64,000 nucleotides of DNA from Salipaludibacillus neizhouensis (GTDB lineage Bacteria > Bacillota > Bacilli > Bacillales > Salisediminibacteriaceae): positions 965,187 through 1,029,186 of the forward strand of contig NZ_KZ614147.1 of the NCBI RefSeq assembly GCF_002886185.1. The letters run 5' to 3'. Numbering within the stretch: the stretch's first letter is position 1; the number at the start of each line of letters is the position of its first letter. The position numbers and the translations under genes were made by a program. Positions 3,075 to 34,205 of the stretch are shown here, one piece after another. The notes under the pieces were generated by a model that was not told where the DNA came from, did no database searches, and saw only the letters and a program-made list of their open reading frames with translations.

Positions 3075-4058
3075 ATGAGTGGGCCAAATTTAAACTACAA
3101 TCAAAACACGGAACCAGTCTTCCTGTCAAAACAGGAAAAACGGCAAGTTAAAAAACAAGAAATGATAAAAAGCATCAAAAAGAACAAGTTGCTCTATTTA
3201 ATGCTCGTACCAGGATTAATTTACTTTTTCATCTATAAGTACATTCCGATGTATGGACTTATTATCGCATTTAAGGATTACAAACCATATTTGGGGATTT
3301 TAGCATCCGATTGGGTAGGATTAGAACACTTTATAAGGTTATTCCAAGGAACCGATTTTTGGATCATATTCCGAAATACGTTAACCTTATTCGGTTTACA
3401 GTTAGTCGTGTTTTTCCCGATACCAATTATCTTATCGCTGATGTTAAATGAAATAAGATCGAATTGGTACAAGAGAAGTGTTCAGACGTTAATTTATATT
3501 CCTCACTTTATGTCATGGGTTGTCATTGTATCGATTAGTTACGTCGTACTAACACTTGACGGGGGGATTGTAAACGGTTTATTAGAAATGATGGGCTTCG
3601 GTCCAATCAATTTCTTAATGAGTTCTGAGTGGTTCCATCCAATGTACATTATACAAGTTATTTGGCGAGAAGCAGGTTGGGGGACGATTATATTTTTGGC
3701 AGCTATCTCAGCTGTAAATATAGAATTATATGAAGCGGCACGGATGGACGGTGCAGGAAGACTCCGCCAAATGTGGCATATCACACTTCCATCGATCCGT
3801 AGTGTCATTGTCGTATTGTTAATCTTGAAAATAGGAGATGTTCTTGAGCTAGGTTTTGAACACGTTTACTTGTTATTAAATGGTTCTAACAGAGAGGTTG
3901 GAGAAATATTTGATACTTACGTGTATACGGCTGGGTTAAAGCAAGGGCAGTTCAGTTATGCGACAGCGGTTGGTTTCTTTAAAGGTATTGTAGGCTTAAT
4001 CTTAGTTATGTTAGCCAACAGGCTCGCTAAGAAATTCGGTGAAGAGGGCGTTTATTAA
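3075..4058 (+). CDS. ABC sugar importer permease 1 (LplB/YteP-like)
   Basis: This is a 327-residue inner-membrane permease with about six membrane segments after a charged cytoplasmic N-terminus (Lys-rich, residues 15-40). The EAA-type loop EAARMDGAGRLRQMWHITLP (near residues 220-240), which docks the ATPase, is present. Proteins of this type carry complex oligosaccharides with an LplA/YtcQ-like binding protein and normally share a general ATPase such as MsmX. Permease 2 follows after 26 nt in the same operon. About 200 bp of AT-rich DNA precede the gene with no obvious terminator. Confidence 0.9.
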   Translation: MSGPNLNYNQNTEPVFLSKQEKRQVKKQEMIKSIKKNKLLYLMLVPGLIYFFIYKYIPMYGLIIAFKDYKPYLGILASDWVGLEHFIRLFQGTDFWIIFRNTLTLFGLQLVVFFPIPIILSLMLNEIRSNWYKRSVQTLIYIPHFMSWVVIVSISYVVLTLDGGIVNGLLEMMGFGPINFLMSSEWFHPMYIIQVIWREAGWGTIIFLAAISAVNIELYEAARMDGAGRLRQMWHITLPSIRSVIVVLLILKIGDVLELGFEHVYLLLNGSNREVGEIFDTYVYTAGLKQGQFSYATAVGFFKGIVGLILVMLANRLAKKFGEEGVY

Positions 4059-4084
4059 AACGACAGAAGAAGGAGGAAATTACT

Positions 4085-4960
4085 ATGCTAGAAGATCGGT
4101 CAGTCAGTGGCAGACTCTTTAATGTTTTTAATATTACATTGTTAGGCATTATTGCACTATTAACAATATTGCCGTTCTTACATGTTGTTGCTGCGTCTTT
4201 TACAACGAGTGCAGAACTTGCGGCAAGACGATTTGTATTAATTCCAACAGTCTGGAGTTTAGATGCGTATCGATATATCTTTTCTACAGATACGATTATG
4301 AAGGCAATGGGAGTCTCGATTTTTGTCACCGTTGCAGGGACCTTGTGGAGTATGTTTATGACGACACTTATGGCCTATGGTTTATCAAGACGTGATTTAC
4401 TTGGACGAGGTAAAATTCAGTTTTTGATCATTTTCACAATGCTGTTTAACGGTGGGATGATTCCAACATTCCTCATTGTGCAGCAAACAGGCTTGATGAA
4501 CTCGTTAGCCGCATTAATTATTCCAGTTTCCATTAATGCATTTAACATGATCATTTTGAGAAGTTTCTTTCAAAATGTACCGACAAGTTTAGAGGAATCA
4601 GCAAAAATTGATGGCTGTAACGATTTTGGAATTTTATTCAGAATTGTATTACCGATATCAAAACCTGCGTTAGCAACGATATCACTTTTTTATGCAGTAA
4701 CGTATTGGAATACGTATATGCACGCGATTCTTTATATAAGCGATTCAGCTAAATGGCCGGTGCAAGTTCTCCTAAGACAGATTGTCGTACTGGCAAGTGG
4801 ATTGAACTATGACGGCGGGGAATATACCAATATACCACCACCGGAACAAACAGTCAAAATGGCCACGATTGTGGTTGCTACGATTCCAATTTTGATCGTC
4901 TATCCATTCTTACAGAAGTACTTTGCCAAAGGGGCTCTATTAGGGTCAGTAAAAGGATAA
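4085..4960 (+). CDS. ABC sugar importer permease 2 (YtcP-like)
   Basis: The second half of the importer channel, 291 residues with six hydrophobic segments. The EAA loop reads EESAKIDGCNDFGILFRIVLP, and the C-terminus ends GALLGSVKG, typical of this MalG-like subfamily. AGAAGGAGGA ends just before ATG 4085, spaced normally. With the binding protein at 292 and the permease at 3075 it makes a complete transporter lacking only an ATPase, which must be encoded elsewhere. Confidence 0.9.
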   Translation: MLEDRSVSGRLFNVFNITLLGIIALLTILPFLHVVAASFTTSAELAARRFVLIPTVWSLDAYRYIFSTDTIMKAMGVSIFVTVAGTLWSMFMTTLMAYGLSRRDLLGRGKIQFLIIFTMLFNGGMIPTFLIVQQTGLMNSLAALIIPVSINAFNMIILRSFFQNVPTSLEESAKIDGCNDFGILFRIVLPISKPALATISLFYAVTYWNTYMHAILYISDSAKWPVQVLLRQIVVLASGLNYDGGEYTNIPPPEQTVKMATIVVATIPILIVYPFLQKYFAKGALLGSVKG

Positions 4961-24202: not shown

Positions 24203-25375
24203 TTAGGCTATCCCCGTCGCACCGACGGTTAGAAGTCTTATAGCTTCGTTTTTTAGATTTAATCCTGCGTTAATATCGCGGTCGTGATGTACTCCACAAA
24301 CACAAGTCCATTCACGTAAAACTTGATCTTTAACGTCTTTATTTTTATAGCCGCAGCTCGAACACAACTGAGAGCTAGGGAAGGTTTTACTCACTTCCAC
24401 TACTGTCTTCGCGTACCATTCAGCCTTGTACTTTAACAGGCTCTTGAATTGATACCAAGACACATCAGCGATCGATTTAGCGGTCTTCTTATTTTTCATC
24501 AGCTTCGATACTTGCAGACTCTCGATTCCGGTAATATCGTGGTTTTTGATAATATCCGTAGAGGTCTTATGCAAAAAATCTGTACGCTTGTTTTCGATCT
24601 TTTCGTGAATTCGAGCAACTTTGATTCGTTGCTTGTTCCAGTTACTAGAACCGATTACTCGTCTTGAAAGTATCTGTTGGGCTTCTGCTAACTTTTGCTC
24701 GAACGAATGAAAGTAACGGTTGTTTCTGTATCTTGTTCCATCCGCAAGGATAGCGAAGTCTTTCAGCCCTAGATCAACTCCTGTGTTAGCGTTTGTTTTC
24801 CGTAGTTCAACTACTTCTGTTTCCGCTAAGATAGATACAAAATACTTTCCACTTGGATGACGTCGAATGGTTACATTGATAATCCGCCCATCTACTTCAC
24901 GACTTTTGGCAAACCGAACAAGACCAAGCTTAGGCAACTTGATGTGTTTATCAAGGACTGCAATATTCCCATTTGTTTGCTTGGTCATATAGGATTGGAC
25001 CTTATTCTTTTTAGACTTGAACCTTGGCGCGTCGTTTTGCTTCTTATAATAGCGCTGGTAAGCATCGGCTAAATTTTCAACGGACTTTTGAAGGGAAATA
25101 CTATCTACTTCTTTTAAGAAAGGATAATGTTCTTTCAAATGTCGAACAGCTTTTACCGAGTCGTATTTATTGAAAAATTCCCCTTTCCAATTGTTTGAGG
25201 GTAATTGACCGTTTTGCGCCATTTCTTCGACAATATACCAGTAAGCATCTTTTTGCTTCTGCTTACCGAGGAAAAAATTGAACACGAATCTGGAGCATCC
25301 AATCGTCTTATTGATCAACTCCACTTGTCTTTTATTAGGGAAAACACGAAATTTAAACGCCTTTTTCACTAGCAC
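24203..25375 (-). CDS. tnpB: RNA-guided nuclease TnpB (OrfB of IS200/IS605)
   Basis: About 390 residues. The RuvC-like active site is complete: DLGLKDFA (Asp), GIESLQ (Glu) and [10 protein letters not shown] (Asp). The zinc finger CSSCGY ... [10 protein letters not shown] (CxxC...CxC) lies between the last two. The N-terminus [16 protein letters not shown] is typical. Because GAGGTGAG overlaps GTG 25384, the GTG at 25375 (giving MLVKKAF) is a better start. No frameshift was seen, so it may be active. Confidence 0.92.
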
Positions 25376-25542
25376 TGAACTCACCTCGTTTTATAGGGAC
25401 GTTTGTTCTAATTATACCATGACAGTGAGTGTTTTTGCTATCGCCAACCGCCATTCATCTCCCCCTTATCGATGGGTTAAAAGCCCTTCTCGCGATTGAA
25501 GAGGGAGTCTTCTGTAAGAAAACGATAAAAGGAAGTGTAAAA

Positions 25543-27853: not shown

Positions 27854-28705
27854 ATGAGCAGAATTATTTTGTCGACAGAGAGTGGAGCAGATCTGCCACA
27901 CGATTTAGCCAGCAAACATGATGTCCAAGTCGTCCCAATGCACGTAATCATGGACGATCAAGATTATCTTGATGGTTCCTTGCCTGTACAAGATATTTAT
28001 GACTATTATGATCGCACGAAAAAAATACCGACCACTACATCAACGAATGCCTATGAATATCATGACTTTTTCGCAGAGATCAAAGCGGATTTTCCGGATT
28101 GCATTATAATTCACATTGGTTACACATCAAAAGCATCCTCGTCCTTTCAAAATGCAGTTCTGGCTTCCGAGGATTTTGAGGATCTCTTTCTAATAGACGC
28201 GTTGAACGTGACAGGGGGACTAATGGTAGTGGTGATGTATGCCGTTTCCGTATTGGAGAATGATCCTGGGATTGAACCCGCTCATTTAATTAAAAAAATT
28301 GAATCCATCGTTCCAAAAGCAAGACTCGCTTTCGTTCCGGGCAAGCTGGATTTTTTGAGAGCAGGTGGTCGTGTAAGTAATGCGGCCTATCTTGGAGGAG
28401 CTTTGTTAAAAATAAAGCCACTTATAGAATTAATTGACGGAAACCTCGTTTCAACCAAAAAGTATCGAGGGAAAATGAACCGCGTCGCCGAAAAATTGCT
28501 GTCAGATTTTCTAAACAAATACGATATCGACCGGGAACAACTGTATTTTCAATATTCCATCGGTCTTGATGAAAGTATCAAGGAGCGAATGGATGACATC
28601 GCAAAGGAAGCCGGCTTCAAAAATGTTAAATGGATTCAAGCCGGCGCGATGATCTCCACCCATGCCGGCCCCGGCGGCTTCGGCGTCGCAGGCTTGGAAG
28701 CATAG
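27854..28705 (+). CDS. DegV-family fatty-acid-binding protein
   Basis: 283 residues of the two-domain DegV/FakB fold. N-terminal ILSTESGADLP, the PTTTSTNAYEY loop that binds the fatty-acid carboxylate, HIGYTSKASSSFQNA, then FVPGKLDFLRAGGRVSNAAYL and C-terminal GPGGFGVAG. These proteins present fatty acids to a FakA-type kinase for phosphorylation. FakA is not in this window. GAGGAGATA precedes the ATG. The TAG stop overlaps a REP half site. Confidence 0.9.
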   Translation: MSRIILSTESGADLPHDLASKHDVQVVPMHVIMDDQDYLDGSLPVQDIYDYYDRTKKIPTTTSTNAYEYHDFFAEIKADFPDCIIIHIGYTSKASSSFQNAVLASEDFEDLFLIDALNVTGGLMVVVMYAVSVLENDPGIEPAHLIKKIESIVPKARLAFVPGKLDFLRAGGRVSNAAYLGGALLKIKPLIELIDGNLVSTKKYRGKMNRVAEKLLSDFLNKYDIDREQLYFQYSIGLDESIKERMDDIAKEAGFKNVKWIQAGAMISTHAGPGGFGVAGLEA

Positions 28706-28722
28706 GGACGTTTCTCTGCTTC
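28703..28722 (+). repeat. REP half site 7
   Basis: TAGGGACGTTTCTCTGCTTC (one change, GGTT to GTTT), sharing its TAG with the DegV stop codon. Confidence 0.8.
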
Positions 28723-28779
28723 ATTTTAGATTCAGAGAGACTTTCGCGATTATACGTTTATTTTAGTAGATAATTGGAT

Positions 28780-28914
28780 ATGGAATATTCAGGGGCAACT
28801 AAATTTGGGGAGACTTTAGATGCGATGTTGCTTGGTAGAGCAAAAGATGATCGTTTTCTAATCATTGATCCTTCCAAAGTTACCTGGGCACGTAACACAA
28901 GCTTTCTACGATAA
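28780..28914 (+). other. Possible gene fragment (44 codons)
   Basis: An open frame reads MEYSGATKFGETLDAMLLGR and continues to DPSKVTWARNTSFLR before a stop. The composition is protein-like, but there is no ribosome site and no recognised match, so this may be a remnant of a displaced gene. The surrounding 28723-29028 otherwise looks empty. Confidence 0.25.
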
Positions 28915-29043
28915 GTATAAGCTCGTTTGATATTCATTAAGCTACGCTGATCATCTTTGGGTGTGGTATTATTATAGTAACTATCGTTGCATTTAAGGAT
29001 TTAAAATTATTTAGAGTTCTCACAACAAAAGGGAGTGTTGGAC

Positions 29044-29232
29044 ATGTTTAAGATATTAAAAAAATTAATGAGCAGTCGGGGCAGCAGCAGTGGAAGAAAG
29101 CACCGGTCGTATAGTTCAAGTGATCGTCATTATCGCGGACGCGGAAGACAATACAGCAGCAGTGATCGACGCAGATCTTCTTCCCACGGAAGTCACCGTT
29201 ATAAAAGAAAAGGGTATGGGAGCAGCAGTTAA
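29044..29232 (+). CDS. Ser/Arg-rich mini-protein convergent with a protein kinase
   Basis: 62 residues. After FKILKKLMSS nearly everything is Ser, Arg, Lys, Tyr, Gly or His, including two repeats of YSSSDR (residues about 24 and 38) and a GSSS end. This low-complexity SR/CotG-like sequence is extremely basic and would be an ideal phosphorylation or DNA/RNA/coat-binding substrate. GGGAGTG lies before ATG 29044. Its stop codon overlaps by 3 nt the stop of the convergent Hanks-type kinase gene. Function inferred from composition and neighbour only. Confidence 0.65.
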   Translation: MFKILKKLMSSRGSSSGRKHRSYSSSDRHYRGRGRQYSSSDRRRSSSHGSHRYKRKGYGSSS

Positions 29233-30044
29233 TGCTTGTTGCTATGCAATTGAGCAATAGCTTGCGTGACATCTTCCATGATCTCAGTAATGTTCCAATA
29301 AGGTTTTTCCATACGAAGTAATCGCTTTAAAAGGTGAGACGTTTTTGGATGCAGGGTTAATTCCTCGGTCCAAGGACGTCCTTTTTTTATCCCGGAATCA
29401 TAATTAGAATAGAGTAAAAAAAGCAATAAGTCCCCTAAGTCATAAAAGTCCTCTCTTAGAAGTGCGAGCTTTGTCTCATTTGCCTTCGGATCAGATTGGT
29501 CAGACGCACTCTTCCATTGCTTGGCTAAGCCAAAGTCAATAATAGCGGGCTTGGAAGCGTCCTGCAGGATGACATTAGGGATTCGAATATCTCCGTGTAC
29601 GATTCCCGATGAATGGATACTTGCTAGAATTTGCATCAATTCATGGATTAATAGTAAGGACTCCTTTTCGGAAAACCGTTGTTTTTTGAGAAAAAGCACA
29701 TCTTCCAGGTTTATTCCCTCCATATATTCCATCGCAATAAACAGGGTATTCTCAAAAATAAAAGAGTCATATAATGTCGGAATGTTCGTCTCGTTTAATT
29801 GTGCTAGAAGGGTTGTTTCTTGTTTAAATTGTTCTTGGATGACTTTTTTGCGTTTGCTTTTTGTCATCTGTTTTACGACACAAATGCGATTGGTAGTTAG
29901 ATCTTTACATAGATAAGTCGTCCCATAGCTTCCAACCCCAAGCAACGATTGAACTCTATAGGAATGACGGATGACCGCATGACGCTTATAGTGGCGATCG
30001 ATACATAGCCGAAATAGTCGTTTGAAAAATTTAAGTATAATCAC
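29229..30044 (-). CDS. Hanks-type Ser/Thr protein kinase
   Basis: About 271 residues, almost all kinase domain. Visible are the glycine loop LLGVGSYGTTYLCKD, the ATP Lys in VVKQ, the catalytic loop HGDIRIPNVIL (HGD in place of HRD) and the metal motif DFGLAKQ. No membrane helix or PASTA domain follows, so it is a small soluble kinase like YbdM/YrzF-type Bacillus kinases. The start is uncertain: GTG 30044 (MIILKFF) is preferred after a G-rich purine tract, and GTG 30059 is also open. It is convergent with the SR-rich mini-protein, a likely candidate substrate. Confidence 0.82.
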   Translation of the reverse strand: MIILKFFKRLFRLCIDRHYKRHAVIRHSYRVQSLLGVGSYGTTYLCKDLTTNRICVVKQMTKSKRKKVIQEQFKQETTLLAQLNETNIPTLYDSFIFENTLFIAMEYMEGINLEDVLFLKKQRFSEKESLLLIHELMQILASIHSSGIVHGDIRIPNVILQDASKPAIIDFGLAKQWKSASDQSDPKANETKLALLREDFYDLGDLLLFLLYSNYDSGIKKGRPWTEELTLHPKTSHLLKRLLRMEKPYWNITEIMEDVTQAIAQLHSNKH

Positions 30045-30097: not shown

Positions 30098-30116
30098 AGG
30101 GACGGTTCTCTGCTTC
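30098..30116 (+). repeat. REP half site 8
   Basis: AGGGACGGTTCTCTGCTTC upstream of the minus-strand kinase gene, pointing away from it. The remainder of 30117-30363 holds only AT-rich DNA before galU. Confidence 0.85.
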
Positions 30117-30363
30117 ATTTTGTTAAGGGGACCGTGAGTACATAAATTTACGAAATTTAATTTTAAAAAACAGAGTATTATATCCTGTTATTTGGTAAAA
30201 TTAATATATTGATGGATAATAGTATTAACTCTTCTCAATCATGATAGACTGTGTGACTAATTTCACATGTTAATTGTTACAAAAACGAATACATATTAGT
30301 AATCAAGCGTGAAACTTCCTTTCTTCGGATATAAAAGGGAATGATTAATCATAGGGGGCACAA

Positions 30364-31263
30364 ATGATGAGAGTGAAAAAAGCAATTATTCCTGCTGCAG
30401 GACTAGGGACAAGGTTTTTGCCGGCAACGAAAGCACAACCGAAAGAAATGCTTCCTATTGTTGATAAACCAACGATTCAATACATCGTTGAAGAAGCGGT
30501 TGCATCTGGAATTGAAGACATTATTATTATAAGTGGTCGCGGGAAGCGTGCGATTGAGGATCACTTTGATAAGTCTTATGAACTGGAAGAAACGTTATTG
30601 AAAAAAGAAAAAATGGAGCTGCTAGCGGAAGTACAAGGTATATCCAATATGGCAAATATTCATTATATCCGTCAAAAAGAACCTCGGGGACTTGGACATG
30701 CTATTGGTTGCGCCAAGCACTTCATTGGTGACGAACCTTTCGCTGTATTACTTGGAGATGATATTGTTCAGTCTGAAACTCCTTGTTTAAAGCAGCTTAT
30801 CGATGTATTTGACCGGTACAATTCTTCCGTTGTCGGGGTGCAACCCGTTTCTGATGAAGATGTTTCTAAGTACGGAATCGTATCACCAAAGTCAACAGAG
30901 GTTGAAAAGGGTGTTATTCATGTGAAGGACTTGGTTGAGAAACCAAAGCAGGAAGATTCTCCTTCTAATTTTGCGATTATGGGCCGTTACGTGTTGCGTC
31001 CGGAAATTTTTCGGATTCTGGATGAGTTGGAACCGGGAGCGGGAAATGAAATTCAATTAACGGATGCCATTAAGAAACTGAATGAAGAGCAAGTTGTCTT
31101 GGCTTACGAGTTTTCCGGTGAGCGTTATGATGTTGGTGATAAGCTGGGATTTGTCAAAGCAACGATAGATTTCGCGTTGCAAAGAGAAGATTTGCAAAAA
31201 GACGTGCTCGATTATTTGAATCAAATAACAAAGAGTTATTTGGAAGAAGAAAAACTATCTTAA
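30364..31263 (+). CDS. galU: UTP-glucose-1-phosphate uridylyltransferase
   Basis: 299 residues making UDP-glucose for wall teichoic acid, glycolipid and exopolysaccharide synthesis. The nucleotide loop [38 protein letters not shown], the LGDD metal site and EKP segment are typical. AGGGGG lies upstream; ATG 30364 or the adjacent ATG 30367 may be used. galE at 42327-43340 is the next enzyme for UDP-galactose but is not linked. Confidence 0.95.
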
Positions 31264-33405: not shown

Positions 33406-33424
33406 ATGTTTGGAGGTGATGAGC

Positions 33425-34205
33425 ATGCCTCGTGGAGCTAGGGTGAAGAGTAGGAGTAGGGTGTATCATGTGATGTTGAGGGGGGCTAACAAACAGGAAA
33501 TTTTTCATGACGATGAAGATTGCATGACATTTCTGGAGACTGTTGAAAAATACAAAATAAAATCAGAGATGGAAGTTTTCGCATGGTGTTTGATGAATAA
33601 CCATGTACATCTTCTCTTAAAGGAGGAATGAAGATATTTCTACGACGATGAAGCGAATCGGAGTGAGTTTTGTCTGGTATTATAATTTGAAGTACAAAAC
33701 TACCGGACATCTTTTTCAGGACAGGTTCAAAAGTGAAAATGTGGAAACGTATATGTATTTGCTGAGGGTAATTAGATATATCCACCAAAACCCTGTAAAA
33801 GCTGGGATAGCAAAGAGTGTTGATGAATGGCGATGGAGCAGTTGCTCTGGTTATTACGGTCAAAAAGTGAGTTTTTCAAGATTTATGTTGGATGATGATG
33901 TGATTTTGAGAATGTTTTCCGATGATGCCGCTGTCGCAAAAATGAAGTTTAAAGAATTTAACGAGAAAACGAATGATGATGAATGCCTTGATGATCGAGT
34001 AACGGAAAGAAAAAGGTTTACAGATGAAGAAGCGCGAATGGAAATCAAAAAGATTCTTGGCGAGGTTGAGATCGCACAAGTAAAAAGTCTCCCTAAGTTA
34101 AAAAGAGACATCGTATTACGAGAAACAAAAGAAGTCGAAGGAATATCCCAACGTCAAGCAGCAAGAATATTTGGCGTCTCCGCAAACCTGGTGTTTAGAG
34201 CTTAG
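33425..34205 (+). pseudogene. REP-associated tyrosine transposase (RAYT, Y1_Tnp), frameshifted
   Basis: MPRGARVKSRSRVYHVMLRG, the HUH motif MNNHVHLLL, then after a shift LKYKTTGHLFQDRFKSE and the tyrosine helix RYIHQNPVKAG: the signatures of RAYT single-strand nucleases. The first frame stops at 33629-33631 right after HLLLKEE. The coding sense continues from 33627 in the +1 frame (NEDISTTMKRIG), consistent with a loss of two bases (or gain of one) near 33626. The C-terminus (EVEGISQRQAARIFGVS) is a helix-turn-helix. GGAGGTGAT supports ATG 33425. Flanked by inverted REP half sites at 33384 and 34214. Confidence 0.85.

Follow-up and report, generated by a model that had tools for sequence, protein, structure and literature searches.

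Eukaryotic SRPK/CLK kinases with their SR proteins, and PKC with MARCKS, combine a kinase with a basic, Ser-rich substrate, and MARCKS uses a phosphorylation-controlled membrane switch. These systems resemble the pair described here by analogy of working only, and homology of the substrates is not claimed. Among bacterial kinases, CotH belongs to a family other than the Hanks type. In the outer coat of the Bacillus subtilis spore, CotH is clustered with CotG and CotB, the Ser-repeat proteins that it phosphorylates, according to PMC7821199. The partner considered below differs from them in its length of about 50–95 aa, its often amphipathic N-terminus and, in one gene arrangement, its sigma-W-type promoter.

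Like the kinase studied here, the YbdM proteins of B. subtilis (also called PrkD) and Bacillus cereus (BC2258) are soluble Hanks kinases. Primers in PMC3033389 give the termini of B. subtilis YbdM, which resemble this kinase family by eye, and ybdM possibly encodes a relative. A search for the B. subtilis ybdM primer in viral contigs and in 18 group g53 genomes had no hit. A difference lies in the partner, since the literature passages on YbdM mention no mini-partner; more broadly, the open-access literature searched makes no mention of one beside the kinase. PrkC and YabT are also Hanks kinases of Bacillus, but passages on PrkC describe an extracellular sensor (PMC12583987) and those on YabT a C-terminal membrane helix (PMC6333020).

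The convergent gene pair of the window

The window, a stretch of 64,000 nucleotides from Salipaludibacillus neizhouensis (contig NZ_KZ614147.1), contains a mini-protein gene that runs towards a kinase gene, with genes for a DegV-family protein and GalU as neighbours (Table 1). The two opposed stop codons share a TTAA palindrome, and the earlier note had placed the end of the mini-protein inside the kinase stop codon; the same overlap (gap of -4) occurs in 10 of 39 convergent pairs. A generic promoter and terminator scan of the locus gave chance levels, and the AGGGAG element ahead of the mini-protein ATG could be its ribosome-binding site.

Table 1. Features in and around the kinase/mini-protein pair (positions in the window)
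Feature	Position	Strand	Remarks
Mini-protein gene	29044–29232	+	ATG start, 62 aa, basic, Ser/Arg/Tyr-rich; convergent with kinase
AGGGAG and spacer before mini-protein ATG	29030–29043	+	Ribosome-binding-like sequence; AGGGAG at 29030–29035
Soluble Hanks-type kinase	29229–30044	-	271 aa from GTG 30044; HGDIRIPN and DFG
TTAA palindrome	29229–29232		Common to both opposed stop codons
DegV-family protein	27854–28705		Neighbour of the pair
GalU	30364–31263		Neighbour of the pair
Copies of 23-bp repeat	18273–45098		13 copies within this range
Direct repeat copy	28705–28727		Brackets the pair
Direct repeat copy	30099–30121		Brackets the pair
IS200-like (Y1) transposase match	33410–33631		First of two adjacent frames (33410–34205)
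Second adjacent frame	33648–34205		
OrfB/TnpB-type IS605 transposase	24203–25384	-	Cas12f1-like domain

The small protein had been described as 62 residues of Ser, Arg and Tyr only, with YSSSDR repeats. The 62-aa frame is real and holds two YSSSDR copies, between an N-terminus MFKILKKL and a C-terminus GSHRYKRKGYGSSS that ends in KRKGYGSSS; its composition is broader. A mechanical open reading frame starts at a GTG at 29035, upstream of the ATG, and gives a 65-aa form (S19 R12 G7 K6 Y5 H4 M3 L3 D3 F1 I1 Q1) with a pI of 11.6 and a charge of about +15 at pH 7. The window protein returned 0 matches among Pfam and NCBIfam models. Only single-member matches, with E values of at least 0.027, were obtained for 22 relatives from convergent loci searched against Pfam and for 39 relatives from same-strand loci searched against NCBIfam, and the PDB holds no sequence relative of the mini-protein. 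By sequence search, the mini-protein is not listed in these two family catalogues.

The kinase could also start at GTG 30059, which would extend it to 276 aa. It matches Pfam Pkinase (PF00069) with E=5.8e-33, and no further Pfam domain was found in it; its HGDIRIPN and DFG motifs agree with the soluble kinase with an HGD loop that had been proposed. The catalytic residues, namely the VAIK Lys, the alphaC Glu, the HxD Asp, the Asn and the DFG Asp (Lys58, Glu76, Asp152, Asn157 and Asp170), are invariant across 60 kinases. Profile and catalytic residues together mark it, as far as sequence can tell, as a Hanks-type (eukaryotic-like) protein kinase. The HRDLK loop and the APE motif are canonical for Hanks kinases, yet they vary even among true members, and this family does not display the two together. 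All 144 relatives carry an HxD[LIV]R loop with Arg in place of Lys, and an APE-like motif is rare (9 of 137 partnered kinases). HRD itself is found in 90 of 98 kinases with a same-strand partner versus 2 of 39 with a convergent one, the latter mostly having HGD or HQD. AlphaFold2, run on the window kinase and L211–L213, gave no usable model (pLDDT 44.3, pTM 0.38).

The surroundings of the pair are rich in repeats and mobile elements. The window holds 13 copies of a 23-bp repeat, GGGACGGTTCTCTGCTTCATTTT, with at most 3 mismatches (0 expected), and the whole genome 90 with at most 2 mismatches, clustered in a few regions. Two of its direct copies bracket the pair. Of two adjacent frames farther along, the first matches an IS200-like (Y1) transposase; the second may, as a guess, continue it, and amid these repeats the two frames could represent a broken REP-associated transposase. 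An IS605 transposase of the OrfB/TnpB type lies on the other side (Table 1).

Distribution, arrangement and conservation

The other 7 genomes of the genus lack a close kinase and the module; their best kinase matches reach 25–28% identity and lie in frames of 675–729 aa. Within the family, a close kinase was found in 1 of 34 other genomes (48% identity). A single-sequence scan of genome contigs returned distant kinases only, at 25–34% identity. Across the order, a close kinase, defined by E<=1e-28, is present in 144 of 397 genomes.

Flanks were taken for all 144 kinases and searched with a mini-protein profile over about 1.2–1.5 kb per side, the flank of L154 reaching a contig end. A homologous mini-protein adjoins 137 kinases. 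In 98 pairs it lies upstream on the same strand, with gaps of -4 to 67 nt, and in 39 downstream in convergent orientation, with gaps of -6 to 72 nt; the 137 pairs include no other arrangement. Locus L166 adds a partner without an ATG, GTG or TTG start and raises the count to 138 of 144. In the genomes of L161 and L163 the partner sits elsewhere, and at L075 and L086 the profile search found none beside the kinase or in the whole genome. L187 and L188 have an upstream zinc-ribbon protein in place of the mini-protein (782–1147 and 797–1159, respectively; ribbons checked on L187). Both proteins contain a GHKHYQRKG- or GNRHYQRKG-like stretch with a core as in the mini-protein, and the zinc-ribbon protein is possibly a fused variant of the partner.

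An unrooted tree of the 144 kinases, built by a quick method, shows a single change of arrangement across its 137 labelled rows. The pairing and its conservation in two main arrangements are established, and the idea of a kinase with its partner gains support from adjacency and co-inheritance alike. The earlier note had named two outcomes that would count against it, namely that the genes never co-occur elsewhere or that the SR frame is unconserved; since the pair is conserved and co-inherited, neither was found.

Plasmid copies also occur. An annotated hypothetical protein in a different frame covers the convergent partner on plasmid NZ_CP033045 of Mesobacillus foraminis, and the upstream partner on the Cytobacillus spongiae plasmid NZ_CP089998 has no entry in the PLSDB table, which is incomplete. 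At L189, RefSeq WP_162990425.1 (3940–4182) is annotated over the conserved mini-protein frame (3944–4132), in a different frame.

The converse search leads to a similar set of genomes. The mini-protein profile matches 140 of the 397 genomes, 136 of which belong to the 144 kinase genomes, although this genome-wide search missed some partners found in the flanks (e.g., L085, L169, and L181). The matching genomes without a listed close kinase are G125, G207, G302 and G177. The G125 kinase is split into two parts separated by about 6 kb, the first of them followed by frames that look IS-like by eye. A kinase remnant lies at most 0.4 kb from the partner match in G302 (L193), an intact partner stands beside a broken kinase at L191, and only short or stop-bearing partner matches remain in G207 and G177. 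L191 and L193 are traces of joint decay of kinase and partner. Genomes of group f44 contain additional, kinase-free mini-protein copies (L197–L201), the one at L201 with an altered C-terminal half.

A wider kinase search matched 88 of 348 genomes, 71 of them outside the order, and 36 of these 71 loci were examined, 16 returned automatically and 20 chosen by hand. Of the 36 loci, which belong to other orders of Bacilli, 20 have a partner. It is convergent in 12 and lies upstream on the same strand in 7; in the remaining one, L247, it is found downstream on the kinase strand, as in no pair within the order. The other 16, including all 8 of group f68, showed no partner; the sequence of L243 stops at a contig edge.

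The two forms of the mini-protein have related consensus sequences. In abridged form, the convergent one reads MFKKI.K...GSS..R..Y..SSS...GS.RYKRKG..SSS and the same-strand one MLKKLLKSLLG...YSSSD...YGHHHYKKK..S.FFSS. With the HMMER bias correction off, 33 of 39 convergent and 91 of 98 same-strand proteins score higher with the profile of the other group than any of 200 composition shuffles. With the correction on and E<=1e-3, the same-strand profile matched 0 of 39 convergent proteins and the convergent profile 12 of 98 same-strand ones. Because these cross-matches are weak, homology of the two forms by sequence alone has moderate strength; the shared kinase link and the common order of motifs add to the case.

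Selection on the small frame was estimated from 33 pairs of close relatives picked by hand, 30 of which had a usable dS. Mini-gene dN/dS is below 1 in all 30 (median 0.04) and below that of the kinase wherever both were computed, apart from one pair in which the two values agree to two decimals. Purifying selection acts more strongly on the small frame than on the kinase, and the SR frame singled out earlier is conserved as a homologous frame beside 137 of 144 kinases. An antisense or low-complexity artefact, considered separately, was ruled out by the mini-gene dN/dS.

Promoters, spo0M and a possible link to sporulation

Upstream of same-strand mini-genes, the pattern TGAAAC-N16/17-CGTA occurs at 70 of 98 loci, against a shuffle mean of 0.08 and a maximum of 1. 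The spacer is 16 nt in 44 sites and 17 nt in 26, and 66 of the 70 sites end 22–70 nt before the mini-gene start. The pattern was first noticed in these same sequences, which leaves the shuffles, together with controls in reversed and reverse-complement orientation (0/98 each), as the guard. We take TGAAAC-N16/17-CGTA to be a promoter of the sigma-W type. The same-strand arrangement would then carry a predicted sigma-W-type promoter, and sigma-W probably drives it.

The site is absent from 28 of 98 same-strand and 36 of 39 convergent copies. The three convergent mini-genes with a site (L047, L054, and L083) compare with 1 of 39 in the reverse-complement control; L047 is the closest relative of the window. 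No site was found upstream of the 39 convergent kinases, nor does the window mini-gene have a TGAAAC-N15-18-CGTA-like site in 28706–29043, and the window genome has SigW. A de novo search for gapped words among the convergent loci yielded none shared by more than 7–8 of the 39. Convergent copies, that of the window included, are possibly under another regulator. Among the 36 kinases examined in other orders, 9 have the site no more than 450 nt upstream; for three of these 9 (L232, L239, and L251), no partner was found.

Across the order, 364 of 395 genomes have a SigW match. Kinase genomes without it, by eye, are G099, G161, G217, G301 and G397, the last counted from its absence among the matches listed. 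The site occurs in 0 of 4 same-strand loci from SigW-less genomes (L090, L103, L104, and L127), which would give p=0.006 for independent loci; these four come from one family and are not independent.

Within the flanks covered (about 1.2–1.5 kb per side), 44 of 98 same-strand loci encode a relative of Spo0M downstream in the same orientation and 2 of 98 encode one upstream, compared with 0 of 39 convergent loci. In the provirus-flank contigs L211–L213, spo0M also follows the kinase (PF07070 checked on L211). Passages on B. subtilis place spo0M among the most strongly sigW-dependent genes (PMC3498285) and report that a spo0M mutant has defects of the membrane and of division (PMC5325327). The frequent spo0M neighbour likens the same-strand module to the sigma-W regulon; a difference is that the word 'kinase' is absent from the main text of PMC3498285.

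The earlier note had looked to spores, by analogy with CotG phosphorylated by CotH. Under that explanation, the mini-protein would be a component of the coat, exosporium or forespore that the kinase phosphorylates as CotH does CotG. One argument for it is distribution. spoIVA is present in 382 of 397 genomes, and the kinase in 144 of these 382 versus 0 of the 15 without spoIVA (Fisher p=0.0016, uncorrected for relatedness, with 8 of the 15 belonging to one family). SigW is present in 14 of the 15, so SigW alone does not bring the module, and an envelope-stress role alone does not explain why the kinase is restricted to spoIVA genomes. Since the kinase is found only there, some link to sporulation may exist. 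The downstream spo0M genes would suit it too, as would the Ser/basic repeats, which resemble CotG and CotB in kind (PMC7821199), and the listing of ybdM as a sigma-G, core sporulation gene (PMC3416734). According to PMC6213207, all characterised kinases of B. subtilis apart from PrkD have a role in sporulation.

Promoter and domain evidence run against it. Crude patterns for sigma E, F, G, K and A were applied as regular expressions to 180 nt of upstream sequence, and nothing stood clearly above the shuffles; the highest count was that of sigma E at convergent mini-genes (2 of 39 versus a shuffle mean of 0.5 and a maximum of 2). The sigma-W pattern, by comparison, is enriched. CotH is absent from the kinase's 10 Pfam rows, which extend to an E value of 1, and the analogy with CotG and CotH is not supported. 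We regard a spore module as unlikely.

Possible membrane association and proposed mechanism

The partner is small and strongly basic and often has an amphipathic N-terminal segment followed by Ser/Tyr-rich basic repeats. The hydrophobic moment of the first 13 aa falls in the top 5% of own shuffles for 57 of 137 mini-proteins (6.9 expected) and outside it for the other 80; a C-terminal control gave 2 of 137. Kinase N-termini reach the top 5% in 25 of the 45 that could be parsed among 144. In the window, the kinase stretch IILKFFKRLFRLC is amphipathic with a strong moment (0.71), and the mini-protein has a low one (0.32 versus a family mean of 0.54). The mini-protein of L224 has a hydrophobic, transmembrane-like N-terminal stretch by eye.

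Since the two genes remain neighbours in many Bacilli, they probably form a dedicated kinase-and-target switch. The mini-protein is most likely a direct substrate, and possibly also an activator, of a kinase that appears to be sensor-less. Our main reading, to which we give a probability of about one half, is an envelope-stress module in which, we infer, the kinase phosphorylates a basic mini-protein bound to the membrane, making it an electrostatic switch. Kinase and mini-partner would constitute a dedicated module widespread in Bacilli, with both proteins probably on the inner face of the membrane. Sigma-W, the envelope-stress factor, would in most cases induce the same-strand module, frequently along with spo0M; the suggested stress role draws on promoter sequence in that arrangement. 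Phosphorylation of the Ser/Tyr runs would then neutralize charge and change binding to the membrane or to a partner. The convergent copy of the window may be used in the same way.

A more specific version, which we hold less likely than not, sees a bacterial counterpart of MARCKS and SR proteins. Here, a mini-protein induced through sigma-W by envelope stress would coat the inner membrane by its amphipathic helix, its own sensor-less kinase, induced along with it, would flip its charge by phosphorylating multiple sites and release or re-target it, and Spo0M would be the downstream effector.

Alternatively, the mini-protein could act mainly as an activator, anchor or adaptor, a basic scaffold for a kinase whose targets are others such as Spo0M or CodY. 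Fixed adjacency, with genes often touching or overlapping, would be expected of such a pair, and spo0M follows the kinase at 44 of 98 loci. Passages on related enzymes offer parallels: YabT is activated by DNA via a basic region (PMC6333020, PMC3708118), and a B. cereus kinase named YbdM phosphorylates CodY (PMC12583987). However, Ser runs with little Thr and a near-frozen sequence fit a substrate at least equally, and we consider a mainly accessory role improbable. Binding of RNA, DNA or the ribosome, tuned by the kinase as in eukaryotic SR proteins, would agree with the charge and pI of the 65-aa form, but amphipathic or transmembrane-like N-termini and the sigma-W-type promoter point to the envelope and make this quite improbable. 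An anti-phage kinase of the PD-T4-6 kind with a small accessory gene is least credible of all: the kinase domain matches PADLOC mad6 (128.8 bits) and PD-T4-6 (115.6 bits), but the best profile matches span only about residues 20–185, the mini-protein is unmatched, and defence genes, in our judgement, do not typically form a stable pair that spans an order and has a sigma-W-type promoter.

Cognate targets of bacterial Hanks kinases are, in our judgement, hard to find. In this family, genome organisation points, in well over a hundred species, to a kinase and its probable dedicated partner; sigma-W and envelope stress are the candidate inducer and Spo0M the candidate effector. If the envelope-stress module is correct, the role of soluble Bacillus kinases would become directly testable. 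Should the MARCKS/SR-like version also be true, it would describe a previously unnamed signalling module across Bacilli and a bacterial case of a charge switch of the SR/MARCKS kind.
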